45,973 nucleotides of DNA from the NCBI GenBank assembly GCA_021848045.1, contig JAJZNC010000023.1:1-45973 (forward strand), given 5' to 3'. The position numbers and the translations under genes were made by a program. Origin of the DNA: an archaeon. Lineage in GTDB: Archaea > Thermoproteota > Nitrososphaeria > Nitrososphaerales > Gagatemarchaeaceae. Positions 3,994 through 44,761 of the stretch are shown in pieces (positions within the stretch are counted from its first letter, which is position 1; the number at the start of each line of letters is the position of its first letter). Below the pieces are notes generated by a model. It did not search any database, was not told the DNA's origin, and saw nothing but the letters and a program-made list of their open reading frames with translations.

Positions 3994-4346
3994 TGGGCAG
4001 GAGGATCGTCGTGGGTGGATGGTTCGACCTCCCACGCCTCGGGAGGGACACCTTCGCGGCGCTGATGAAGCAGGAGGTCGTCTACGACAGGTCGCTGGGG
4101 TTCAAGCTGGACTCGGGGACGGACATCCAGTCGGCGGTGAAGACCATCAGAGCAGCCACCGGGGAGGAGGTGGAGCTCGTCTTGAGGTGCTTCATCTGCG
4201 GCAAGCCTGCGTGCGAAGGCTGCCCCTACTCGCAGGCCTGCGACAGGACGTCGGTCTCGACCCTGTGCCTGTGCTCGGACCACGCGCCTGAGAGGTCGGT
4301 CTTCGAGGAGTACTCGAGGACGTTCGACCTCAGCCTCAAGGGCTAG
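3993..4346 (+). CDS. Small Cys-cluster protein of unknown function
   Basis: I do not recognise this 117-residue protein. The GTG at 3993 overlaps the rfcL stop codon, so it is the last gene of the endA-ubiA-rfcL operon. The N-terminal half is mixed alpha/beta. The C-terminal part contains 'CFICGKPACEGCPYSQACD' and then 'CLC', seven or more Cys within about 35 residues (CX2C-X4-CX2C-X5-C). That pattern suits zinc or an iron-sulfur cluster, but neither is shown. Position beside rfcL hints at DNA replication or repair and nothing more. The stop overlaps by two bases the stop of the converging winged-helix gene. Confidence 0.7.
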   Translation: MGRRIVVGGWFDLPRLGRDTFAALMKQEVVYDRSLGFKLDSGTDIQSAVKTIRAATGEEVELVLRCFICGKPACEGCPYSQACDRTSVSTLCLCSDHAPERSVFEEYSRTFDLSLKG

Positions 4347-17141: not shown

Positions 17142-18806
17142 CTAGGTCCCGCCCCTCTCGGGGCGCGGGATGTCGAAGGCCTCGATCCTCCTGTGGCCGA
17201 ACCTGCTCGCCCTCTTCCCCTCTATGGGTATCTTCTGGCCGCACCCCCTGCAGCGGTAGTCCGCGTCAAGGTCCCAGCCGGTTATCATGAAGCCGTGCCT
17301 CTCTATGACGACCCGCCGGCATCCGGGGCAGTAGGTGCTCTCCTGCGGGCTCCCGGGGACGTTCCCGATGTAGGCGAAGTTGAGCCCCGCAGCCACCGCC
17401 GCCTCGTGGTGCCTCACAAGCTGCTCGTATGGGGTGACGGGCAGGTCAAGGAGCTTGTAGTCAGGGTGGAACCGCGTGAACTGGATCGGGACGTCTGGGC
17501 CGAGGTTGTCGTGGATCCAGACGCAGAGCCTCCGCGCCTCGTCGAGGTCGTCCCCGACCTGGGGGATGACCAGGTCGGTCAGCTCGGTGTGTATCTTCTG
17601 GGCCCTGAGCTCCAGGAGGGTCTCCTTGATCGGCTCCGCGCTGAGGGTCATGGTCTGCCGCCTCTGGAACGTCTCTCCGCCGCTCCCCTTGTAGTCTACC
17701 ACCACGCCGTCGACGTAGCCCCTTATCGCGCGGACCATCTCGGCGGTCCCGTACCCGTTCGTGACGAACGCGGTGTACTTCCCAGCGCGGTGCGCCTCCC
17801 TCGCCGCGTCGATGACGTACTCGACGAAAATCGTGGGCTCGTTGTAGCTGAAGCCCACGCCCTCGCAGCCGTTCTCGTGGGCGAGCTCCGGGAGGCGCCC
17901 GGGCGGGACGTCCTCCCCGTAGACCTCGCTCTCCTTGCTTATCGCGTGGTTCTGGCAGAAGAGACAGTTGTGGACGAGGATCCCGTCGGCGACGTACGTG
18001 TGGCTCGGGATGCACTCGAATCCGTACACCTTGGTGGACCGACCCGTTCTCTCCACGGCGGTCACCCTGGCCCAGATGTTGTCGCTCGCCAACGCGGGCG
18101 AGAAGACGGTCGCGGCCACCATGTCCCGGATGGAGTCGGCGTGGTCGTGGATTGTCCCGGCGGGAACCCTGAGCACCCTCCACCCGTTGAGCTCGAGCGT
18201 CGCGTCCCGGGCCGCGGCGCTCTTCGGGTAGACGCGCAAGACGTGGTCCCCCGGCCGGACCTCGGCGGCCTGCCTCCAGCCCGCCCTGGTGAGGACGGGA
18301 TGGTCCCCGGTTATCAGGGTCTCTCCCTTCGACCCATCTCGAGCGGGGCGGTCCCCGCCCCACCGGATCGACCAGAGCTCGGCCGTCCTGCTCCGGACCT
18401 CCGTGACGACGTTTGGCTTCGGCTTCGCCCCGGTCGCCACATGAGGGGTCGCGTCGTATGAACAGACCCGGTCGCCCGGCTTCAGGGACTCGACACCCTT
18501 CTCCGAGCCGTCGGCGAGCGTTATCTGGGTGCCAGCAGGGTGGCAGTGCCAGTTGCAGCTCACCGTCCCCACGGTGAAGACGCGGGTCCCGGGGTGGAAG
18601 TGGTTGAACGGCTTCTTCTCTATAGGGTCGATCTGCATCGCGGCGAGCCTGCCGTATGAGGAGAGGTAGAGCTTCCCGCCCACGTTCTTCCTGACATAGC
18701 AGAACCCGTGGGACCCCTCAGGTATGGAGCACCGCCTGTTGCAGGCGCGGCATACCACCCTCCCGTCGCGCGCAGGCCCCCAGAGGATGGCCTCCTTGTC
18801 GACCAA
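17142..18806 (-). CDS. amrS: AmmeMemoRadiSam radical SAM enzyme interrupted by an intein
   Basis: The precursor is 554 residues from TTG 18806. Removing residues 88-280 leaves a 361-residue AmrS-type radical SAM enzyme, the family's usual size. The N-extein ends '…TVSCNWH' and the C-extein begins 'CLFCQNHAIS'; joined they make the CX3CX2C cluster motif 'CNWHCLFCQN'. The rest shows 'GVGFSYNEPTIFVEYV', 'FVTNGY' and a C-terminal rubredoxin-like Cys set ('YCPGCRR', 'YRCRGCGQK'). The start is favoured because the upstream ATG at 18848 is followed by a TATA box at 18833-18841 inside its own codons. The spliced protein would bind a 4Fe-4S cluster; its reaction is unknown. It lies in the same direction as amrB. 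Confidence 0.93.
   Translation of the reverse strand: MVDKEAILWGPARDGRVVCRACNRRCSIPEGSHGFCYVRKNVGGKLYLSSYGRLAAMQIDPIEKKPFNHFHPGTRVFTVGTVSCNWHCHPAGTQITLADGSEKGVESLKPGDRVCSYDATPHVATGAKPKPNVVTEVRSRTAELWSIRWGGDRPARDGSKGETLITGDHPVLTRAGWRQAAEVRPGDHVLRVYPKSAAARDATLELNGWRVLRVPAGTIHDHADSIRDMVAATVFSPALASDNIWARVTAVERTGRSTKVYGFECIPSHTYVADGILVHNCLFCQNHAISKESEVYGEDVPPGRLPELAHENGCEGVGFSYNEPTIFVEYVIDAAREAHRAGKYTAFVTNGYGTAEMVRAIRGYVDGVVVDYKGSGGETFQRRQTMTLSAEPIKETLLELRAQKIHTELTDLVIPQVGDDLDEARRLCVWIHDNLGPDVPIQFTRFHPDYKLLDLPVTPYEQLVRHHEAAVAAGLNFAYIGNVPGSPQESTYCPGCRRVVIERHGFMITGWDLDADYRCRGCGQKIPIEGKRASRFGHRRIEAFDIPRPERGGT
17967..18545 (-). mobile_element. Mini-intein inside amrS (193 residues)
   Basis: The intein starts with Cys in 'CHPAGTQITLADGSEKGV' (block A) and continues 'SLKPGDRV'. 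It has block B 'TGDHPVLTRAGW' with the T-x-x-H motif, block F 'YGFECIPSHTYVADGIL' and ends 'VHN' before the +1 Cys. All residues needed for class 1 splicing (Cys1, block B His, penultimate His, terminal Asn, Cys+1) are present. No LAGLIDADG homing endonuclease blocks are visible, so it should splice but not move. Insertion is between the first and second Cys of the radical SAM motif, so the Fe-S site exists only after splicing. Confidence 0.93.
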
Positions 18807-18832
18807 TCTTGGCGCGCCGAAGGTGCGGTCCG

Positions 18833-18841
18833 GTATAAGGC
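18833..18841 (-). promoter_or_regulatory. TATA box deciding the amrS start
   Basis: CCTTATACC on the minus strand lies within the first codons of the longest frame and 27-35 bases before TTG 18806, supporting the shorter protein. Confidence 0.5.
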
Positions 18842-18987
18842 CTGCCATCTCGTGCCGGTGTTCTGGACGCTAGGGCGGGGGGGTCGAATCGAGGGAGCCT
18901 CCAGGGCGAGGATGCCGAGGGGGAGCGGGGGTACCGAGGGCCCCAAGGGCTAGCGAAGGGCGACGGCGGGGACTCCGGGTCAAGGGG

Positions 18988-19839
18988 TCATGCGAAGGAG
19001 ACCGAGGGGTAGCCCACCACCGCCTCGTAGTCCCCGGTGACCTCGCCGCTGTTGTGGTAGGCGTTCACCCTGCCCCTCATCCCCATGAGCCTGCAGGCCT
19101 CCATCACCGAGGCGATCGCCCCGTACCCGCACGCCGTGATCTCCATCCTCCCGAGGGTGCTGTAGAAGGAGTCGACGTCGAGCGCCTCTACGTGCCGCAG
19201 GAGCGCGAGGTCCTTGTCCCTGGCGCGCGAGGCAGGCTCGTAGTGGGTGAGGTCTGAGGAGGCTACGAGAACCGCGTCGGTCTCCCCGTCGGCGGCGGGC
19301 CGGAGCATCTCGGCGAGCGCCTTTCCGAGGCTCCGGGCGGTCGACTTGTCCTGCAAGGCGAGCGAGACCGGGAGGAGGGTAAACCGCCCGTACAGGCGCT
19401 GGAGGAAGGGAAGCTGGACCTCGATGGAGTGCTCCCTCCTGTGGGCCTCGCGGTCGACCTCGACGACCCCGCTCAGCCCCTCCAGCTCGGCGGTGGCCGC
19501 GGCGTCGACCTCGACCCTCCCCAGGGGGGTCTCCCACACACCCTGCCCGTAGGAGGCAACGCCTGCCCCCAGGCCGTAGTGGTTCGGGCCCAGTATCACC
19601 ACCAGTGCCGGCCTGGCCATCCGTGAGACGTCGAGGTAGCTGTGGGCGGCCACGGGGCCCGAGTAGGCGTAGCCCGCGTGGGGGCAGACGCAGGCCTTCA
19701 GGCCCTTGAACGTCCCACCCACCGAGGGGAGCGCCCCCGGCCCCAGCCTGTGGGTGTAAGAGGCGTCCACCGCGGCCGAGAGCTCGGCGGCGCCCGATGG
19801 ATAGAACGTCCCCGCCACGGCCGGATTCCTCACGTCCAT
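18988..19839 (-). CDS. amrB: AmmeMemoRadiSam protein B (MEMO homolog)
   Basis: This 283-residue protein matches the MEMO1/AmrB family, related in fold to extradiol dioxygenases. The metal-site regions are present: 'PHAGYAYSGPVAAHSY', 'GPNHYGLG', 'HSIEVQLPFLQ', 'SSDLTHYEP' and 'ACGYGAI' with the late Cys. Human MEMO1 has been reported to bind iron or copper; the archaeal substrate is unknown. The ATG at 19839 gives the usual 'VRNPAVAGTFYP' N terminus. The longer ATG at 19866 sits on a TATA-like CTTAAATG (19865-19872), so it is unlikely. The gene lies upstream of amrS on the same strand and divergent from the two-TM gene and amrA. Confidence 0.92.
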   Translation of the reverse strand: MDVRNPAVAGTFYPSGAAELSAAVDASYTHRLGPGALPSVGGTFKGLKACVCPHAGYAYSGPVAAHSYLDVSRMARPALVVILGPNHYGLGAGVASYGQGVWETPLGRVEVDAAATAELEGLSGVVEVDREAHRREHSIEVQLPFLQRLYGRFTLLPVSLALQDKSTARSLGKALAEMLRPAADGETDAVLVASSDLTHYEPASRARDKDLALLRHVEALDVDSFYSTLGRMEITACGYGAIASVMEACRLMGMRGRVNAYHNSGEVTGDYEAVVGYPSVSFA

Positions 19840-19864
19840 CTCGGGCGCCGAGGCCGGGCCTGAC

Positions 19865-19872
19865 ATTTAAGG
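19865..19872 (-). promoter_or_regulatory. TATA box of amrB
   Basis: CTTAAATG on the minus strand, 26-33 bases before the chosen ATG at 19839 and overlapping the alternative upstream ATG. Confidence 0.5.
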
Positions 19873-19945: not shown

Positions 19946-20722
19946 GTGGCCAGGCGGAGACGGAGGGAGACCGCAGGAGGGACGGCGACCAAGCGCGCGA
20001 TACGCGTCCTCATCGTGGTAGCGTTCCTGGCGTGGCTGGTGCTCGCCTTCGAGCAGCCCCTCGCCTGGTACGGCTCCGTGGCGGGAACGCAGACGTACTC
20101 GACCGTGGGCACGTACACCCTCGACGTGCCAGGCCTGACCCCCGTGAGATACTCAGCCGCCATCAACTACTCGGTCCTGGGGGCCTTCTCCGTGGGGACC
20201 GGCAACCCGATCTCGATGAAGGCCACCGTCTACGACGTCAACGTGACAGACTTCGGCTCGGTCTTCCAGGCGATCGACCTCCTCTACCAGAAGGTGGACT
20301 TCAACAGCGCAGGGGCCGCTGAGCTCCCCTACCTCCATCAGTCGGGCCCGGGCACCTGGACGGCGCAGGGGTCGGTGGCGTTCGCGGCGCCGATCAACTT
20401 CACGGGCCCCGAGCTCGTCCCCACAACGCTCCCCAAGAACGCCAGCATAACGACGATCGACGCCCAGATAATCTCCCAGGTCGGGGCGTACAACTACAGC
20501 TTCCCGCACCTAAAGTCCCAGTCCTACACAGACACGCTCGTGGCGGTCGAGTGGGTCCTGAGGCTGGGCGCGATGGCCCTCGGCGGCGTCGTCCTGCTCC
20601 TCATCCCAGTCCTCGACAGGATCCTCGTCGAGGACAAGAGCCACAGCCACTCCGCGCCCGAGGGGACGCCAGAAGGGTTTAACGGAGGGCAGGCGCGCTC
20701 TCTCCCCCAACCGTGTACCTAA
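19946..20722 (+). CDS. Unknown two-TM protein overlapping amrA
   Basis: I do not recognise this 258-residue protein. A basic N terminus ('ARRRRRE') precedes a TM helix (about 20-40). A roughly 160-residue external domain follows, rich in Thr, Ser, Asn and aromatic residues with several N-x-S/T sequons, then a second TM helix (about 205-225) and a short His/Ser cytoplasmic tail. The external domain looks like a beta-sandwich. The GTG start is at 19946. Its last ten bases overlap the start of amrA in another frame, so the two should be translationally coupled. That makes it a candidate membrane partner of the AmmeMemoRadiSam system. Confidence 0.75.
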   Translation: MARRRRRETAGGTATKRAIRVLIVVAFLAWLVLAFEQPLAWYGSVAGTQTYSTVGTYTLDVPGLTPVRYSAAINYSVLGAFSVGTGNPISMKATVYDVNVTDFGSVFQAIDLLYQKVDFNSAGAAELPYLHQSGPGTWTAQGSVAFAAPINFTGPELVPTTLPKNASITTIDAQIISQVGAYNYSFPHLKSQSYTDTLVAVEWVLRLGAMALGGVVLLLIPVLDRILVEDKSHSHSAPEGTPEGFNGGQARSLPQPCT

Positions 20723-21291
20723 CCCCAGACCAGGGCAAGGCTCTGGTCTCGATTGCCAGGACGGCCGTCGAGCAGGCTGCCGAGGGAGGGGAGCCCGCCT
20801 TCGGGCACGGAGCGCCCCCCAGGCAGCGCTTCCTCGAGGCCAAGAGGGGCGCATTCGTCACCCTGAGCACCCTCGAAGGGCAGCTGAGGGGGTGCATCGG
20901 GTTCCCCTACCCGTTCAAGCCCCTCGGAGAGGCCGTCTTCGAGTCGGCGGTCGGGGCGGCCACCCGCGACCCGAGGTTCCCCAGGGTGGAGCCGCGAGAG
21001 CTGGCGTCGCTGAGGGTGGAGGTGAGCGCCCTCACGCAGCCAGAGGAGGTCGCGGGCAGCCCCGAGGAGAGGCCCCGCAGCGTGAGGGTCGGCAGGGACG
21101 GCCTCATGATAGTCTCGAGGGGCGGAGGCGGCCTCCTGCTGCCGCAGGTCGGGGTCGAGCTGGGGGTCGGGCCAGAGGAGTTCCTCTCGCTGACCTGCGA
21201 GAAGGCCGGGCTCCCGCCCGACTCGTGGCTGCGTCCCGAGGTAAGGGTCCTTCGGTTCCAGGCGGAGGTCTTCTGCGAGGCGCCCCCGTGA
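20713..21291 (+). CDS. amrA: AMMECR1-family protein (AmrA)
   Basis: This 192-residue AMMECR1 protein has the hallmark 'LRGCIGFPYP' (LRGCIG motif) near residues 58-67, 'AVGAATRDPRFP', 'LRVEVSALTQPEEV' and 'GGGLLLPQV'. The family's conserved Cys in the LRGCIG loop is thought to be catalytic, but no activity is established. It starts with GTG at 20713 inside the end of the two-TM gene. With amrB and amrS on the other strand it completes the three-gene AmmeMemoRadiSam set. Confidence 0.93.
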   Translation: MYLTPDQGKALVSIARTAVEQAAEGGEPAFGHGAPPRQRFLEAKRGAFVTLSTLEGQLRGCIGFPYPFKPLGEAVFESAVGAATRDPRFPRVEPRELASLRVEVSALTQPEEVAGSPEERPRSVRVGRDGLMIVSRGGGGLLLPQVGVELGVGPEEFLSLTCEKAGLPPDSWLRPEVRVLRFQAEVFCEAPP

Positions 21292-35146: not shown

Positions 35147-37606
35147 TCAGGGGGCGGGCTTCCTGCCGCGCATGGCAAGATAGCCCGTCGCGATGATGAA
35201 GATCACTGCGACCGCAGCTATGCCGTAGGTGACGCCAGGGCTGATTCCCCCGCTGGAGGCGGCCGTGACAGTGGTAATCGACCCGCTGGTGGAGACCACG
35301 GTCGAGACCGATACTGCCGTCGTGGTCGATGTGGAAGTGACTGTGGTTGTTGACGCCGACGATGTCGAAGGCGGGATGCCTTGCAGCGTCAGCGCTATAA
35401 TATCGCCCGGTGTGCTACCCGGACACGTCGTGATTGCGGAGAAGCTACACGTGCCCACCGGCACAAGGATGAACTCCTGGCCGCTCGCAGACGCCCCGAT
35501 TGAGAGTCCTATGTCCATCGGTGCACCGACATAGTAGTCGCGAATCATATTGCCCGTCTGTGCGTTGAGCATTACGATATCTCCCGACGACAGCGTCAGA
35601 TAGACGACGTTTCCGCTCACGTCAGTCTGACCACGGTATCCCTGAAGTTGGGCGGTGACGGTATGCCAGATAAGATGGCCGGTCTGAGCGTTGATGTCCC
35701 ATGTGGTTGCGTTGTTGTAGAGCGTCCCGCAGTTGGGGCAAGGTACTCCGCCTTCGCCTACCGAGGTGAAGTAGGTTGAGGAGTTAAGTCCGATGTAGCC
35801 CATGTAGCTGGGGACTACGTGCGACGTGGCGTAGATCTGGTTGGTTGCTGGGTCGAATGCCTGTTCGTCCTCGAAGCCCGCAAGCTCGGAAGGCCATTGG
35901 AGGAAGTCAGGCTGAGGGCCTCTCTCGCAGGCGCTGGTGTAGTTAGGTGCGCAGTTTAGGAGTGCGGATGGGAAATCTATGCCCGTCTGGGACGCGTTTA
36001 GTGGGTTCATAGGGTAACATACTGGACACCTTGACTGGCCTGGTGTCTCAATTCCGCTCGGTGGGTCCCAGGCCCAAATCAGGTCACCTGTCAAAGCATT
36101 AATCTCGAACAGGTAGCCGTCCTTGCAGGTCTTCAGGATTACTGGTGTGTTGACCCCGTTGATGGTCTCGTTGGCCAGAGCCTGCCACCAGGAGCAGTCG
36201 TAGTCCCAGATGTCGTGCGTGGTTGTCTGGAGACCCCAGACGATCTGGCCCGTCGTCATGTTGAGGGCCAGGACTGAAGCCGACCAGAGGTCAGGGCCAG
36301 GGTTGCAAGGCCCGACGAACGGGTCCTTGTTGTTGGTGCCCAGGAAGACCAATCCCGCGGTCTGGCCAGAGCCGACGATCCATTCTCCGCCCCATGCGGC
36401 ACCCGTGGAGCCGGTCGAGCCGCCGCCGTCGATCGCGAGGCACTGCGCGCTCTGGAACGACTGACCCCAGTCGTTGTAGAGGGTCGCGTTGAGCTGGGCC
36501 GCGGACATCGACTTCCAGTTGACGACGATGTCGTTGTTGGTGTTCATGAGGAGGCCGCCTGCGGTCTCCCATGGAGTGGTGTACCCGTTGGTAGAGCCGT
36601 TAGCTCCCGGGTAGAAGGTGTATGCTGCGGACATGTTGCCGATCAGCTGCTGGTCGAAGTACGGGTTCACCGGGACGCCGCTGCCCGGTTGGGGTGGGAC
36701 GTCTGGAGTGACCCACATGAGGGTCGGCGGGTTGTTGTTGAGGTTCCAACCTGCAAAGAAGCCCCTGCCGTTGTCCGCGTCGAGCTCAGCGTCGTGTCCG
36801 GAGACCAGTATCCCGAGCTGCTGGTTGATTACGATGTTGGACGCGCCGACGCCGTTGTAGATGCTCTGGGGATTGTTGCCGGGCACCATGCTAAGGCCGG
36901 TGAAGTCGGTGAAGTTCAACTCCAAGTGTCCGGTGATGGCATCAAGGGCGTAGACTCTGTTATTGTCACCCTGGTACCAAACGGTCGGCCCGCTCACGCC
37001 GCTGCCGAAACTACTGGTCGTGAAGTACTCATTGCCATCGTGCGTGTGGAGCGGGACAGGTCCGGTCGCTTCACCCACGGTCTGGTTTACCGCAAGCGGA
37101 GAGGTGTTCTTCCACAGCACGTTCCCATTCGCGATATTGAATGCAAACGTCTCGTCAAACGCCGTGATCGCGAACGCGGTCCCGTTTACTATCAACAAGT
37201 CCATCCCCAGGACGACACCAGGAATGAAGTTCGCAGGCAGTGAGCTGAGCGCAACGGGGACTTCCGGCATTGGATAGATCCACCCCATCCCCAAGGACTG
37301 GATGTCCGAGCTATTGATCTGGTTCTGGGGATTGTAGTCCCAACCGTATTGGTTGGCGTTCGGGAACTCCCAATTCGCCTCTGCCTGCGTGAGCGGCGTC
37401 GCGGAGGCGGGGGACGGAGCTGCGGTCGCTGAAGGCGCCGCGGTTTGCGGCACTGCGCCGATCGGGTTGATGAGAAGCGAAGCGCCGATACCGGATACGA
37501 GGAAGAGGAGGCTGAGCCCTAGAGCTCGGATTCTTGTGTTGGTAAGTCCCTTCTTCATTGCCTTGGCGAAAGCTCTCCTGACGCTCTTACTCACGACCTC
37601 AGTCAA
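35147..37606 (-). CDS. Membrane-anchored PQQ-dependent dehydrogenase, copy A
   Basis: This 819-residue exported quinoprotein begins with a basic N terminus and TM/signal helix ('LGLSLLFLVSGIGASLLINP'). A roughly 640-residue beta-propeller follows with PQQ repeats ('ALDAITGHLEL', 'EINALTGDLIWAW', 'DINAQTGHLIWH', 'MLNAQTGNMI'). Then come a Ser/Thr/Val linker (about 760-795) and a C-terminal TM anchor ending 'MRGRKPAP'. The active-site segment 'HDIWDYDCSWW' has the D-Y-D pair seen in lanthanide-type methanol/ethanol dehydrogenases. Conserved CxxC pairs ('RCPVCY', 'PCPNCG') probably form disulfides; none is a heme c site. TTG 37606 lies 26-33 bases from TATA and gives the same length as copy C. 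Substrate unknown, probably an alcohol, aldehyde or sugar. Confidence 0.88.
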   Translation of the reverse strand: MTEVVSKSVRRAFAKAMKKGLTNTRIRALGLSLLFLVSGIGASLLINPIGAVPQTAAPSATAAPSPASATPLTQAEANWEFPNANQYGWDYNPQNQINSSDIQSLGMGWIYPMPEVPVALSSLPANFIPGVVLGMDLLIVNGTAFAITAFDETFAFNIANGNVLWKNTSPLAVNQTVGEATGPVPLHTHDGNEYFTTSSFGSGVSGPTVWYQGDNNRVYALDAITGHLELNFTDFTGLSMVPGNNPQSIYNGVGASNIVINQQLGILVSGHDAELDADNGRGFFAGWNLNNNPPTLMWVTPDVPPQPGSGVPVNPYFDQQLIGNMSAAYTFYPGANGSTNGYTTPWETAGGLLMNTNNDIVVNWKSMSAAQLNATLYNDWGQSFQSAQCLAIDGGGSTGSTGAAWGGEWIVGSGQTAGLVFLGTNNKDPFVGPCNPGPDLWSASVLALNMTTGQIVWGLQTTTHDIWDYDCSWWQALANETINGVNTPVILKTCKDGYLFEINALTGDLIWAWDPPSGIETPGQSRCPVCYPMNPLNASQTGIDFPSALLNCAPNYTSACERGPQPDFLQWPSELAGFEDEQAFDPATNQIYATSHVVPSYMGYIGLNSSTYFTSVGEGGVPCPNCGTLYNNATTWDINAQTGHLIWHTVTAQLQGYRGQTDVSGNVVYLTLSSGDIVMLNAQTGNMIRDYYVGAPMDIGLSIGASASGQEFILVPVGTCSFSAITTCPGSTPGDIIALTLQGIPPSTSSASTTTVTSTSTTTAVSVSTVVSTSGSITTVTAASSGGISPGVTYGIAAVAVIFIIATGYLAMRGRKPAP
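35155..35212 (-). repeat. Near-identical 58-base 3' end, copy A
   Basis: It encodes the C-terminal TM anchor of PQQ copy A and differs from the copy B segment (37924-37981) at two bases, although the linkers just before it are quite different. Confidence 0.7.
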
Positions 37607-37631
37607 GATGCACGTTAGAGACAGAGCATCG

Positions 37632-37639
37632 CATTTAAG
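37632..37639 (-). promoter_or_regulatory. TATA box of PQQ dehydrogenase A
   Basis: CTTAAATG on the minus strand, 26-33 bases before TTG 37606. Confidence 0.5.
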
Positions 37640-37652
37640 ACGGGTTAGCGTT

Positions 37653-37713
37653 AGACCAAACAAACTCGAAACCGAGCTTCCCAAGTGTTTCGTGGGGACA
37701 ACCAAAGCAGAAG
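37653..37713. repeat. Conserved 61-base block upstream of copy A
   Basis: It aligns without gaps to 40430-40490 upstream of copy B with 37 of 61 bases identical. Many differences fall every third base in the plus frame, where both blocks read '…P…VGT-K-E'. It could be leftover coding sequence from the duplicated unit or a spaced regulatory element. Confidence 0.4.
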
Positions 37714-37915: not shown

Positions 37916-40390
37916 TCAGGTAGCGGGCTTCCTGCCACGCATGGCAAGATAGCCCGTCGCGATGATGAAGATCACGGCGACTGCGACCACTCCATAGAGT
38001 GTCGTGGAGCCCACTCCCGATCCGGAGGTCGACGTTACTGTCATGGTCGCCGTGGTTGTGGTCGTTGTCCCGGCCCCGGACACGGTGATGGTGGACGCCG
38101 AGACGGAGGTTGTCGTGCTGGTCACTGTGGTGGTCGACGTTGTGGCGCTCGATGGCGGCGGTGCAGCCAGCGTAAGGGCGACGATGTCACCCGGCGTAGA
38201 TCCAGGACAGGTCGTGACTGCCTCCAGGCTGCACGTGCCGACAGGGACGAGGACGAACTCCTGGCCGCTGACAGAGGCTCCGATCGCCACGCCGACGTCC
38301 ATCGGCGCGCCGATGTAGTAGTCTCTTACGAGCTTGCCCGTCTGCGCGTTCAGCATCAGGATGTCACCCGAAGAGTCGGCCAGGTAGACAAGGTTGCCGC
38401 TGACGTCAGTCTGGCCGCGGTATCCCTGATTGGGTATAGAGTAGCTCCAACCGATCTGGCCGGTGGCGGCGTTTATGTCCCACGTGGTGAAATTGTTGTA
38501 GATGACACCGCAGTTGGGGCACGGAAGTGTAGTCTCACCGCCAAACGACGTGAAGTAAGTGGTCGCGTTCGCCGGAACGTACCCAGTGTAGTATGGGACC
38601 AAGTGCGACGTTGCATAAATCTGGTTCGTCGCCGGGTCGAATGACTGTTCGTCCTCAAATCCTGCTATCTCGGAAGGCCAGAGCAAGGTCGGAGGCTGTA
38701 GGCCTGTGATGCAGGAGGTCGTGAAGGCGGGCGCGCAGTTGGTCATTGCGGTCGGGAAGTCGAAGTTCATCTGAGTCGCGTTGAGCGGGTTCCACATGTA
38801 GCAGACAGGGCACCTGCTAGGCCCCGGCGACTCGGTGCCGCTCGGCGGGTCCCACGCCCAGATGAGGCCACCGGTCAAGGCGTTGATCTCGTAGAGGTAG
38901 CCGTTCTTGCAGGTCTTGAGGATGACCTCGGTGTTGACGCCGCTTATGGTCTCGTTGGCCATAGTCTCAGACCACGAGCAGTCATAATCCCAGAGGTCGT
39001 GGGCATTAGCCTGGAACCCCCAGATTATCTGGCCCGTGCTCATATTGAGCGCCAGCGTTGCCGCCGACCACAGGTTCGGTCCTGGGGTGCAGGGGCTAGC
39101 GTATGGGTCCTTGTTGTTGGTGTCTACAAAGACCATACCTGCGGTCTGGCCCGAGCCGACCACCCATTGGCCGCCCCATCCGGCACCTGTGGCCCCCGTC
39201 GATGCGCCTCCGGTTATGGCCTGACACTGCGGCGACTGGTCTACGTACCCCCAGTCGTTGTAGAGCGTCGCGTTGAGCTGGCTCTGCGAAAGGGCCTTCC
39301 AGTTCACTACGATGTCGTTGTTTACGTTGTTCAGGACCCCTCCGGCAATCTCCCAGGGAGTGGTGTAGCCGTTGGTCGAGCCGTTCTCGCCTGGGTAGAA
39401 GGTGGACGCGCCGGTCATGTTGTTGATTAGCTGGATATCGAAGCTTGGGTTCAAGGGGACGTTGCTCTGTGTCTGCGGCGGGGTGGTGTAGGTGATCCAC
39501 TGCTCCACGGGCGGGTTGCTGTTGAGGTTCCAGCCCGCAAAGAACTGCCTGCCCGCGGCGATGGCGATTCCCTGGTCCATGCTTGAGACGAGGATTCCGA
39601 GCTGCTGGTTGATGGCGATGTTCGATGCTCCAGTAGTGCTGTACACCGCAACCGGGTTGTTCCCGGCGACCATGCTCAGACCGGTGTAGTCGCTGAAGTT
39701 CATCTCCTCCCTTCCGGTCAATGCGCTGATGGCGTAGACCTTGACGTTGCCAGCCTGGAACCAGAACGTCGGACCCGAGACCCCGCTGCCGAAGCTGGCG
39801 GTGGTGAACGCCTCGGTGCCGTCGTGGGCGTGGAGGCCGACGGCCCCCGCGCCGGATGGCAGTGTCTCGTTCGCAATCAGAGGTGACACGAACGTCCAGA
39901 GGAGCTCCCCATTGGCCACGTTGAACCCAAAGACCTCGTCGAACTGGGTGATCACAATCGCCGTACCGTTGACTATCAGAGGATCTACTCCGACGCCTGG
40001 GAAAAAGAAGCTACTGATCGCATTAAGCGAGGTGGGCTCCGAGGGGAGAGGATAGATCCAGTTCAGGCCAAGGTATTGGGCATTGGAGCTGTTGATCTGG
40101 TCCTGAGGGTTGTAGTCCTGGCCGAACTGGTTACCGTTCGGGGATGCCCAGTTGGCCTGAGCTTGAGAAAGCGGCGTAGTGGCAGCTGCTGACTGAGCCG
40201 CGACCGCGGTGGGCGACGCGGAATTGGGCGCCGCGCTCACAGGGTTGATTAGGAGCGAAGCACCAATTCCAGATACGAGGAAGAGAAGGCTTAGCGCGAG
40301 CGCTCGAAACCTGGTGTTGCGGACTCCTCTCCTCAGAACCCTTCCAAGCCCCACCCTAAGCCTTCGTTCGGTCTCGTTCTTCAACACCAA
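37916..40390 (-). CDS. Membrane-anchored PQQ-dependent dehydrogenase, copy B
   Basis: This 824-residue paralog of copy A has the same layout: basic N terminus, TM/signal helix ('LALSLLFLVSGIGASLLINP'), eight-bladed-type PQQ propeller, Thr-rich linker and C-terminal TM anchor. The active-site segment reads 'HDLWDYDCSWSETM', again D-Y-D, and the CxxC pairs are kept ('RCPVCY', 'PCPNCG'). It is the most divergent in the first two blades and the linker. TTG 40390, GTG 40387 and TTG 40384 are all possible starts; TATA spacing favours the last, which changes two residues. It lies upstream of copy A in the same direction, 309 bases away, each with its own promoter. Confidence 0.88.
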   Translation of the reverse strand: MVLKNETERRLRVGLGRVLRRGVRNTRFRALALSLLFLVSGIGASLLINPVSAAPNSASPTAVAAQSAAATTPLSQAQANWASPNGNQFGQDYNPQDQINSSNAQYLGLNWIYPLPSEPTSLNAISSFFFPGVGVDPLIVNGTAIVITQFDEVFGFNVANGELLWTFVSPLIANETLPSGAGAVGLHAHDGTEAFTTASFGSGVSGPTFWFQAGNVKVYAISALTGREEMNFSDYTGLSMVAGNNPVAVYSTTGASNIAINQQLGILVSSMDQGIAIAAGRQFFAGWNLNSNPPVEQWITYTTPPQTQSNVPLNPSFDIQLINNMTGASTFYPGENGSTNGYTTPWEIAGGVLNNVNNDIVVNWKALSQSQLNATLYNDWGYVDQSPQCQAITGGASTGATGAGWGGQWVVGSGQTAGMVFVDTNNKDPYASPCTPGPNLWSAATLALNMSTGQIIWGFQANAHDLWDYDCSWSETMANETISGVNTEVILKTCKNGYLYEINALTGGLIWAWDPPSGTESPGPSRCPVCYMWNPLNATQMNFDFPTAMTNCAPAFTTSCITGLQPPTLLWPSEIAGFEDEQSFDPATNQIYATSHLVPYYTGYVPANATTYFTSFGGETTLPCPNCGVIYNNFTTWDINAATGQIGWSYSIPNQGYRGQTDVSGNLVYLADSSGDILMLNAQTGKLVRDYYIGAPMDVGVAIGASVSGQEFVLVPVGTCSLEAVTTCPGSTPGDIVALTLAAPPPSSATTSTTTVTSTTTSVSASTITVSGAGTTTTTTATMTVTSTSGSGVGSTTLYGVVAVAVIFIIATGYLAMRGRKPAT
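37924..37981 (-). repeat. Near-identical 58-base 3' end, copy B
   Basis: The anchor-coding segment of PQQ copy B. It differs from copy C (42307-42364) at one base. Confidence 0.7.
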
Positions 40391-42298: not shown

Positions 42299-44761
42299 CT
42301 AGGAGGCGGGCTTCCTGCCACGCATGGCAAGATAGCCCGTTGCGATGATGAAGATCACGGCGACCGCTGCTATGCCGTAGGTCACTGCGCCGACCCCTCC
42401 TCCCGAGGAAGAGACGACTGTGGTTGTGCTGACTGACGTGGACGTGCTGACCGCTCCTGTGGCGGTCGTGGTGGAGGTGGACACTACGGTCGTAGTGGAG
42501 CCAGAGGTGGACGGTGGAGGCACGTTCTGGAGGGTGAGGGCCATCACGTCACCAGGCGTCGTGCCCGGGCACGTGGTTATGGCCTCGAGGTCGCACACTC
42601 CCACGGAGAGCAGGATGTACTCCTGTCCTGTGAGAGATGCTCCGAACGAGACGCCCTCGTCCATCGGCGCGCCGATGTAGTAGTCGCGGACCAGGTGACC
42701 GGTCGATGCGTTGAGCATCAGGATGTCACCCGACGACTCGGTCAGGTAGACCAGCCCTCCGCTAACGACGGTCTTGCCGCGGTATCCCTCTGAGGGGTTG
42801 GTGTAGTGCCAGACTATGTTGCCGTTGGCTGCGTTGATGTCCCATGTGGTGGAGTTGTTGTTGATGGTGCCGCACTGTGGGCACGGTTCGCCGAAGTTCA
42901 TGCCCGGCGACGTGAAGTACGTCGTCGAGTTCAGGCCTAGGTAGCCGATGAAGGCTGGGACGAGGTGCGACGTGGCGTATATCTGGTTGGTCACAGGGTC
43001 GTAGGCTTGCTCACCCTCGAAGCCGGCTATGGCAGACGGCCAGGAGTAGTACGGAAGCTGTGAAGACGGTGGGCCGTTGATGCACGAGATGCTGTACGTG
43101 GGTGCGCATGCGAACATGTCGGATGGCCACTCGAACGCCATCTGAGAGGCGTTGAGCGGGTTCCACATGTAGCACTCTGGGCACCTTGCCTGGCCGGGTG
43201 TCACAACGCCGTTGCTCGGCGGGCTCCACGCCCAGATGAGGTTGCCGGTCTGTGCGTTGATCTCGTAGAGGTAGCCGTTCTTGCAGGTCTTGAGGATGAC
43301 CTCGGTGTTGACGCCGCTTATGGTCTCGTTGGCTATCGCCTGGTACCACGAGCAGTCGTAGTCCCAGAGGTCGTGCGCGTTGGCCTGGAACGCCCAGATT
43401 ATCTGCCCGGTGGTCATGTTGAGCGCCAGGGTTGACGCCGACCAGAGGTCAGGTCCGGGTGTGCAGGGCCCCACGTACGGGTCCTTGTTGTTGGTCGATA
43501 CGAACACCATGCCGGCAGTCTGTCCAGAGCCGACCACCCACGCGCCGCCCCAGCCCGAGCCGGTAGACCCGGTGGAGCCGCCGCCGTCGATGGCGAGGCA
43601 CTGCGCGGTCTGGTAGGACTGTCCCCAGTCATTGTACAGGCTCGCGTTGAGCTGTGTCGAGGAGAGGCCCTTCCAGTTGACCACGATGTCGTTGTTGACG
43701 TTGTGCAGGACTCCGCCAGCGGTCTCCCACGGAGTGGTGTAGCCGTTGGTAGAGCCGTTTGCTCCTGGGTAGAAGGTGGACGCGCCGGTCATGTTGGCGA
43801 TCTCCTGCTGGGCGAAGTACGGGTTCAGCGGGACGCCGCTGCCCGGTTGGGGCGGGACGTCTGGGGTCACCCACATGAGCTGCGGCGGGTTGGTGTTGAT
43901 GTTCCAACCTGCGAAGAAGCCCCTGCCGTTGTCCGCGTCCGTCTCAGCGTCGTGGCCGGAGACCAGGATGCCGAGCTTCTCGTTGATGACGATGTTGGAG
44001 GCGCCGATGCCGTTGTAGATGCTCTGGGGGTTGTTGCCGGGGACCATCGCGAGGCCCGTGAAGTCAGTGAAGTTCAGGTCCTCATGGCCTGTGAGAGCGT
44101 CGATGGCGTAGACCCTGTTGTTCTGGCCCTGGAGCCACAGCGTAGGTCCGCTCACGCCCGCCCCGAAGGTCGAGGTGGTGAACCACTCGTTGCCGTCGTG
44201 GGAGTGGAGCGGGACCGGCCCTGTGGCTTCGCCTGCGGTCTGGTTAGGAGCCAGAGGCGAGGTGAACGTCCAGAGGACGTTTCCGTTGGCCACGTTGAAG
44301 GCGAAGACCTCGTCATACTCGGTGGTGGCGAACGCGGTGCCGTTGACGACGAGCACCGACATCTGCACGCTCACGCCCGAGTAGAGTCCGCCTAGGGTGG
44401 TGAGGGTCGTGGGTAGGGTAGGCAGCGGGTAGATCCAGCTCAACCCAAGGTACTGGGCGTTCGAGCCGTTGATCTGGTTCTGGGGGTTATAGTCCTGGGC
44501 GAAGGCGTTCCCGTTGGGGTACTCCCAGTTGGCCTCGGCCTGCGACAGCGGCGTCGTGACTGCCGCGGACGGGGCCGCGGCCACGCTAGGCGCCGCGGTG
44601 TTGGGCACCGCGCCGACGGGGTTGACCAGCATGGAAGCGCCTACTCCCGAAAAGAGGAATAGAAGGCTTAGTGCGATTGCACGTGTTGATGTGTTGCTAA
44701 ATGTTTTCTTCAGACTTTTCCTTAATCCTTTGGTAATACCTTTCGTAGATTCCTTCGTCAT
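42299..44761 (-). CDS. Membrane-anchored PQQ-dependent dehydrogenase, copy C
   Basis: This 820-residue paralog begins 'MTKESTKGITKGL', then has a TM/signal helix ('IALSLLFLFSGVGASMLVNP'), a PQQ propeller, a Ser/Thr linker and a C-terminal TM anchor ending 'MRGRKPAS'. The active-site segment is 'HDLWDYDCSWYQAI' (D-Y-D), and the repeats 'EINAQTGNLIWAW', 'DINAANGNIVWH' and 'MLNASTGHLVRDYY' are clear. The CxxC pairs are 'RCPECY' and 'PCPQCG'. It appears closer to A than to B over the first four blades. The ATG at 44761 is 25-32 bases from a TATA box, with the shared box further upstream. PQQ synthesis genes are not in the window. Confidence 0.9.
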   Translation of the reverse strand: MTKESTKGITKGLRKSLKKTFSNTSTRAIALSLLFLFSGVGASMLVNPVGAVPNTAAPSVAAAPSAAVTTPLSQAEANWEYPNGNAFAQDYNPQNQINGSNAQYLGLSWIYPLPTLPTTLTTLGGLYSGVSVQMSVLVVNGTAFATTEYDEVFAFNVANGNVLWTFTSPLAPNQTAGEATGPVPLHSHDGNEWFTTSTFGAGVSGPTLWLQGQNNRVYAIDALTGHEDLNFTDFTGLAMVPGNNPQSIYNGIGASNIVINEKLGILVSGHDAETDADNGRGFFAGWNINTNPPQLMWVTPDVPPQPGSGVPLNPYFAQQEIANMTGASTFYPGANGSTNGYTTPWETAGGVLHNVNNDIVVNWKGLSSTQLNASLYNDWGQSYQTAQCLAIDGGGSTGSTGSGWGGAWVVGSGQTAGMVFVSTNNKDPYVGPCTPGPDLWSASTLALNMTTGQIIWAFQANAHDLWDYDCSWYQAIANETISGVNTEVILKTCKNGYLYEINAQTGNLIWAWSPPSNGVVTPGQARCPECYMWNPLNASQMAFEWPSDMFACAPTYSISCINGPPSSQLPYYSWPSAIAGFEGEQAYDPVTNQIYATSHLVPAFIGYLGLNSTTYFTSPGMNFGEPCPQCGTINNNSTTWDINAANGNIVWHYTNPSEGYRGKTVVSGGLVYLTESSGDILMLNASTGHLVRDYYIGAPMDEGVSFGASLTGQEYILLSVGVCDLEAITTCPGTTPGDVMALTLQNVPPPSTSGSTTTVVSTSTTTATGAVSTSTSVSTTTVVSSSGGGVGAVTYGIAAVAVIFIIATGYLAMRGRKPAS
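42307..42364 (-). repeat. Near-identical 58-base 3' end, copy C
   Basis: The anchor-coding segment of PQQ copy C, the third member of the set. Conservation at silent sites points to gene conversion or recent shuffling of the 3' end. Confidence 0.7.

Follow-up and report, generated by a model that had tools for sequence, protein, structure and literature searches.

Inteins are known in a few radical SAM proteins, as the first-pass annotation of this DNA had stated. NCBIfam already holds intein-containing models for the tetraether lipid synthase Tes (NF045703) and for Rv2578c (NF038136), and an intein has been described in the MoaA protein of P. abyssi (PMC3922620). According to two reports, which describe the work of Callahan et al. 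(2011), a disulfide between Cys-3 of the N-extein and Cys1 of the P. abyssi MoaA intein blocks splicing (PMC3922620, PMC10663303). The Tes inteins (L100-L108) lie inside the CX3CX2C cluster motif and have a cluster cysteine as their +1 residue. Rv2578c belongs to a radical SAM family different from AmrS; a literature search on this protein returned no paper. With respect to homing, a DUF559/EDxHD gene appears among the intein data of a Thermosynechococcus paper, which does not state that the gene lies inside an intein (PMC9403480).

Here we describe a 193-residue insert in the radical SAM enzyme of the AmmeMemoRadiSam system (AmrS), encoded in a 45,973-nucleotide stretch of DNA (the window) from an uncultured Nitrososphaerales archaeon. 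The best reading, to which we assign a probability of about 0.88, is a class 1 cis-splicing mini-intein that occupies the only AmrS gene detected in this organism and derives from a nuclease-bearing ancestor. Like the P. abyssi MoaA intein, it interrupts a radical SAM host and has a Cys1 near an N-extein cysteine. Redox control was shown for the MoaA intein, whose partner cysteine is at -3 and which probably sits before cluster Cys3, whereas the corresponding cysteine of the window intein is at -4 and the insert lies before Cys2.

Results

The host protein was identified by its match to TIGR04337 (AmmeMemoSam_rS): the 568-residue precursor scored 308.9 bits against a cut-off of 220, and the score rose to 326.6 bits for the spliced protein of 375 residues. 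With this match, and with the CX3CX2C motif present after splicing, the original naming of the host as AmrS holds. The reading frame is open over all 568 codons, with no internal stop, and the insert agrees with the gene in GC content (GC3 of 0.90 and 0.91, respectively). Both of the other AmmeMemoRadiSam genes, those for AMMECR1 and Memo, lie near amrS (Table 1). We searched for a second AmrS in the genome that carries the window (G000), an 88%-complete bin of 61 contigs, and found none.

Table 1. Features of the amrS locus and its neighbours, in window coordinates.
Feature	Position	Strand	Basis or remark
amrS precursor ORF, 568 aa	17142..18848	-	TIGR04337; intein-bearing radical SAM enzyme of the AmmeMemoRadiSam system
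N-extein, 101 aa, ending ...VSCNWH	18546..18848	-	alignment to empty homologues; cluster Cys1 is residue 98 (-4)
Mini-intein, 193 aa, C1...HN	17967..18545	-	alignment, Pfam profile, AlphaFold model with Foldseek
Intein Cys1 codon (block A nucleophile)	18543..18545	-	invariant in alignment
Block B, T79-G-D-H82	18300..18311	-	T79 and H82 invariant in alignment
Relic of an EDxHD/DUF559-type nuclease, intein residues ~107-143, PKSAAARDATLELNGWRVLRVPAGTIHDHADSIRDMV	18117..18227	-	alignment columns 107-312; Pfam DUF559 match in relatives; fold match
Blocks F and G, VYGFECIPSHTYVADGILVHN	17967..18029	-	alignment; TIGR01443
+1 Cys codon, to become cluster Cys2 on splicing	17964..17966	-	
C-extein, CLFCQN... 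radical SAM barrel, including stop	17142..17966	-	
Memo-like AmmeMemoRadiSam protein B	18988..19866	-	same strand, upstream of amrS
AMMECR1 / AmmeMemoRadiSam protein A	20713..21291	+	

Elsewhere in the window are three similar proteins of 820-852 residues (35147-37705, 37916-40390 and 42299-44761, minus strand). Each has an N-terminal signal-like stretch, and they have in common a C-terminal membrane segment (YLAMRGRKPA); they are possibly PQQ-dehydrogenase-like.

The insert comprises precursor residues 102-294, beginning with CHPAGTQ and ending with ILVHN, after which the host resumes with CLFCQN. It directly precedes cluster Cys2 of the CX3CX2C motif. Joined, the exteins of the window protein read CNWHCLFCQNH, and empty relatives read CNWNCQFCQNH, CSWHCTFCQNH and CNWHCMFCQNH; the first two of these belong to AmrS proteins of the same genus (L004 and L003, respectively) that are about 80% identical. 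When the spliced protein served as a tblastn query, the alignment broke exactly at residues 101/102 in intein-bearing relatives and was continuous in empty ones. Because the joined sequence matches the empty relatives, cluster Cys2 doubles as the +1 nucleophile and cluster Cys1 lies at -4. These comparisons establish the position between Cys1 and Cys2 that the first-pass annotation had proposed, and its boundaries proved exact. Comparison of the insertion site with archaeal AmrS proteins, which had also been suggested there, revealed homologous inteins at the same junction as well as empty relatives that match the joined motif. Since the insert separates two of the three cluster-binding cysteines, it is reasonable to expect that no cluster forms before splicing and that AmrS would be inactive until the insert leaves.

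The insert exhibits the features of a class 1 intein: Cys1, a TxxH motif (T79GDH82), a VHN/C end (here and below, a slash marks a splice junction), a predicted Hint fold and an exact in-frame insertion. Cys1, T79, H82, H192 and N193 are invariant across 13 homologous inteins, with Cys as the +1 residue, and this invariance bears out the initial claim that all splicing residues of a class 1 mini-intein can be seen. Pfam Intein_splicing (PF14890) matched the insert alone with an E value of 5.5e-8 and 33.2 bits, slightly under the cut-off of 35.8, and the whole protein passed TIGR01443 (intein_Cterm) at 18.4 bits (cut-off 15.6). An AlphaFold (AF2) model of the insert predicts a Hint fold (pLDDT 76.6, with the splicing core mostly above 85); the best PDB matches to this model in Foldseek were inteins and intein-like domains, with E values down to 1.7e-8. 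By phmmer, the best PDB relative of the splicing domain is the Mtu RecA intein (PI-MtuI). The likeness is in the sequence of the splicing domain, and host, site and nuclease all differ; one block F residue is Asp in Mtu RecA and Gly in the window intein, and is Ser or Gly across the whole family. We found no LAGLIDADG, HNH or DUF559 match in the window intein, which retains only a nuclease relic, as befits a mini-intein. Two other assignments were rejected: a class 3 intein, given that C1 is present and that block F position 4 is Gly, not Cys; and a bacterial intein-like or Hedgehog Hint domain, because of the +1 Cys, the HN terminus and the existence of exact empty sites.

Inteins homologous to the insert are scattered across archaeal AmrS genes. 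Of 400 genomes of the class, 280 gave a match to AmrS, and an intein before Cys2 (site a) was seen in no fewer than 15 in addition to the window. Using the full-length inteins as queries, we also scanned 84,980 genomes of bacteria and archaea; as the scan relied on nuclease motifs, further mini-inteins may have escaped it. It yielded 22 loci: all are archaeal, all are in AmrS, and all share this junction. They come from Nitrososphaeria, among them Nitrososphaeraceae and Candidatus Nitrosotalea, and from bins that carry the labels Bathyarchaeota or Euryarchaeota. Two genomes with a site-a intein are single contigs (G096, the source of L031, and G079, the source of L017). Most site-a inteins are exactly 353 residues long, and nearly all are close to that length. 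When viral contigs were scanned for carriers, six weak nuclease-like matches were returned, and the AmrS intein was not found.

Within the genus of the window, AmrS exists in four states: with the mini-intein (the window), empty (G305, G314, G370 and G348), with a full site-a intein (G1023 and L225), and with an intein at a second site, site b (G1021, the source of L227, and G1022, in which the gene is split over contigs, L228). In the extein tree, the window protein groups with the empty L003 and L004 (99/99), and the states none, a and b require at least 12 changes. In the intein tree, the window intein groups with that of L002 (100/99); the exteins of the two fall within one AmrS subfamily. 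The window intein is also the fastest-evolving member of this tree, with an end branch of 0.85. The site-a element is thus sporadic and no fixed part of AmrS. AmrS function can dispense with the intein, given this patchy distribution: orthologues of the same genus lack it, and it is present in Nitrosotalea, soil thaumarchaea and Bathyarchaeota-labelled bins.

Between blocks B and F, the full-length relatives contain a zinc-finger-like stretch (FxCxxC...WxxHRxxCY) and a nuclease domain that matches Pfam DUF559 (E values to 1.1e-7, over the cut-off) and REase_MTES_1575. An AlphaFold model of the L012 intein matched the EDxHD catalytic domain of I-Bth0305I (3r3p_B) with a probability of 1.00, a target TM score of 0.76 and an E value of 1.8e-3; because the model is of moderate confidence (pLDDT 74, pTM 0.46), we rely on profile and fold jointly to assign the nuclease. 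The likeness to I-Bth0305I and to Vsr-like nucleases is in the predicted nuclease fold. I-Bth0305I belongs to a group I intron, whereas the AmrS version lies inside a contiguous intein and is deleted in the window.

The window copy shares its insertion junction and a homologous splicing domain with these EDxHD-bearing AmrS inteins, but it lacks their intact nuclease core. Its segment RDATLELNGWRVLRVPAGTIHDHADSIRDMV aligns to the nuclease tail of the full-length relatives, which establishes the relic, and about 170 residues upstream of it, which belong to the nuclease and the zinc-finger-like module, have been deleted. The first-pass statement that no homing endonuclease is visible is therefore correct for an endonuclease domain, although some 37 residues of such a domain persist. 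Because the nuclease tail alone is retained, the window copy is probably a decayed homing intein. The site-a intein of L010 (L010:2290-3198) is 303 residues long, has a shortened nuclease, and reads EEWRH in place of DGWWH; it is an apparent decay intermediate. The empty, full, decaying and mini states expected under the homing-cycle model (PMC3229294) are thus seen at one AmrS junction. We found no free-standing copy of the nuclease in G000 at an E value of 1e-5.

Other AmrS proteins (L032-L036, L025 and L226-L228) carry an intein before Cys3, at site b (C-x3-C-x-[YF]/C...SN/CQN). These inteins are of the LAGLIDADG type and end in AVSN/C, with Ser replacing the usual penultimate His; among NCBIfam models, the one for Tes radical SAM proteins with an intein is closest to them (6.8e-21). 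Tes precursors read TNRCNFSCWY/C...SN/CFFFAE and empty Tes sequences read TNRCNLSCWYCFFYAE, and this comparison places the split in the Tes motif before Cys3. Although alike in splitting CX3CX2C, the Tes inteins differ from the window intein in this position, in being LAGLIDADG-type and in their penultimate residue (Ser in most, Gly in L107), and they are closest to the AmrS site-b inteins, not to the window intein. For Rv2578c, residues 68-335 of the NF038136 model align through the motif of a full-length site-a precursor (residues 98-456, E value of 4.7e-9), which suggests that the Rv2578c intein likely occupies the same place, before Cys2. A match to NF038136 on contig C7 of G000 (E value of 0.0099) was weak, looked like chance, and was set aside. 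Since the AmrS sites, Tes, the Rv2578c model and P. abyssi MoaA all bear on this motif, the radical SAM motif is a recurrent intein site, of which the AmrS location is a new instance and not the first. The position had been called noteworthy; it is less singular than this suggests, as the Tes inteins share the motif.

Reading by eye, we found nine genes of G000 to carry 15 or more inteins between them. The hosts are MCM (two inteins), PurL, NuoB (two), NuoI (two), a pilus-type ATPase (two), aIF2-gamma, PolB (three), SufB and AmrS; at least 14 of the inteins, in eight genes, lie outside AmrS, on contigs C1, C6, C25, C44, C47, C48, C56 and C61 (L128-L135). The identities of NuoB and NuoI were confirmed by Pfam. 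Other members of the family also have long NuoI and NuoB frames that contain these inteins, and intein matches were obtained in 39 of its 41 genomes. The +1 residue is Cys in 8 of the at least 15 inteins, and in five of them (two in NuoB, two in NuoI, and that in AmrS) this cysteine is a known ligand of a cluster once the exteins are joined. In NuoB, the +1 cysteines of ETACC and MGAC are ligands of cluster N2; in NuoI, the +1 cysteine at both occurrences of CVFCGLCVDACP is a complex I Fe-S ligand. Further sites at metal-binding cysteines, with hosts named by eye from motifs, are those in KorB/PorB (WCPG/CGD), Mrp (CPH/CGE) and SufB, and, likewise by eye, the zinc-ribbon sites CPS/CGA and CPH/CGK. 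We conclude that in this lineage inteins repeatedly occupy sites at which the +1 residue binds a metal or an Fe-S cluster. An intein site need not coincide with metal ligation, because PurL, MCM and a pyruvate-dehydrogenase-like E1 are counter-examples.

Several individual loci were recorded as well. CxxC-site inteins occur in KorB/PorB, Mrp/ApbC, zinc-finger-like and zinc-ribbon proteins of the same archaeal order (L210-L213, L214 and L216-L218). One SufB gene (L219) has two inteins, NEG/C...HN/CSAPVY and TVR/C...HN/CDALL. In the window, an uncharacterised cysteine-rich protein is intein-free at 4185-4223, plus strand (RCFICGKPACEGC), and its relatives L215 and L221 have an intein at RCFV/CG.

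Discussion

Our results point to a mini-intein that would have arisen from a full-length homing intein of about 353 residues with a central EDxHD/DUF559 (Vsr-like PD-(D/E)XK) nuclease. That nuclease would have driven insertion into precisely this conserved codon context; the lineage of the window would then have lost the nuclease core by deletion and kept the splicing domain. Splicing would begin with an N-S acyl shift at Cys1, continue with transthioesterification to Cys+1 and with cyclisation of Asn193, assisted by His192, and end with an S-N shift. SCNWH would be joined to CLFCQN, and only then would CX3CX2C be complete for a 4Fe-4S cluster. The site may have been retained because imprecise loss would ruin the cluster motif. 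We infer both that splicing occurs and that no cluster can form before it; on the simplest view, the insert is a selfish element that has become stranded and splices constitutively. The position of the intein would follow from the need for a +1 Cys, a target DNA that is extremely conserved, and the lethality of imprecise loss, such that target-site bias, together with the need for a +1 Cys, makes it explicable without regulation.

Splicing might instead serve as a redox or oxygen switch, as was first proposed: a disulfide linking a neighbouring cluster cysteine to intein Cys1 (or Cys+1) would keep the precursor unspliced under oxidising conditions and release AmrS under reducing ones. P. abyssi MoaA, a radical SAM enzyme with a Cys-3/Cys1 disulfide, provides a precedent (PMC3922620, PMC10663303). 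Thiols crowd the AmrS junction (cluster Cys1 at -4, intein Cys1 at 1, and the +1 Cys), site-b inteins have a Cys exactly at -3, and this lineage has repeated cases of inteins at Fe-S ligand cysteines. We nevertheless consider such a switch unlikely. The N-extein Cys at -3 that marks redox-trap inteins of the MoaA kind is absent from the window protein, in which the nearest is at -4 (C-N-W-H-C1), and C1 is the only invariant cysteine of the intein: C178 is Thr in several homologues, and C28 is Trp in all the others. In addition, AmrS genes without the intein exist in the same genus. Similar inteins at zinc-ribbon cysteines, and inteins with a +1 Cys in PurL, MCM and the pyruvate-dehydrogenase-like E1, further weaken the case, because an oxygen-labile cluster is not at issue there. 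A broader version is just as doubtful: that Fe-S and zinc cysteines are a systematic intein niche in Nitrososphaerales, that some splicing, including that of AmrS, is coupled to the redox state of thiols or to the state of the metal, and that the AmrS element was domesticated by loss of its EDxHD nuclease.

Less probable still is a decaying or dead intein that does not splice and leaves AmrS inactive in this organism. The fast-evolving branch, the lost nuclease and the single AmrS copy found would fit this account, but all splicing residues are retained, the 568-codon frame is open, and the exteins, cluster motif included, are conserved at about 80% identity to empty relatives. Because the window intein evolves fastest in its tree, its splicing may be slow or impaired. 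An assembly chimera or contamination, named at the outset as a possible refutation and conceivable for a gene from a 61-contig, 88%-complete bin, can be dismissed almost entirely, because homologous inteins share the junction in more than 20 other, independent archaeal genomes, two of them single-contig, and codon composition is alike in insert and gene.

The AmrS mini-intein adds a new host and a new junction to the inteins that split an Fe-S motif, and its full-length relatives exemplify EDxHD-type nucleases embedded in contiguous archaeal inteins. Together they form a natural series for the homing cycle at one junction: empty, full with a predicted EDxHD nuclease, 303-residue degenerate and 193-residue mini. 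The mini-intein with its CNWH/CLFC flanks is a compact test construct. The pattern of inteins at metal-binding cysteines in one archaeal lineage makes selfish target bias and redox-gated maturation testable against each other, with paired sites in the same proteins. If redox coupling were to prove true, the assembly of an oxygen-sensitive enzyme would be gated after translation.
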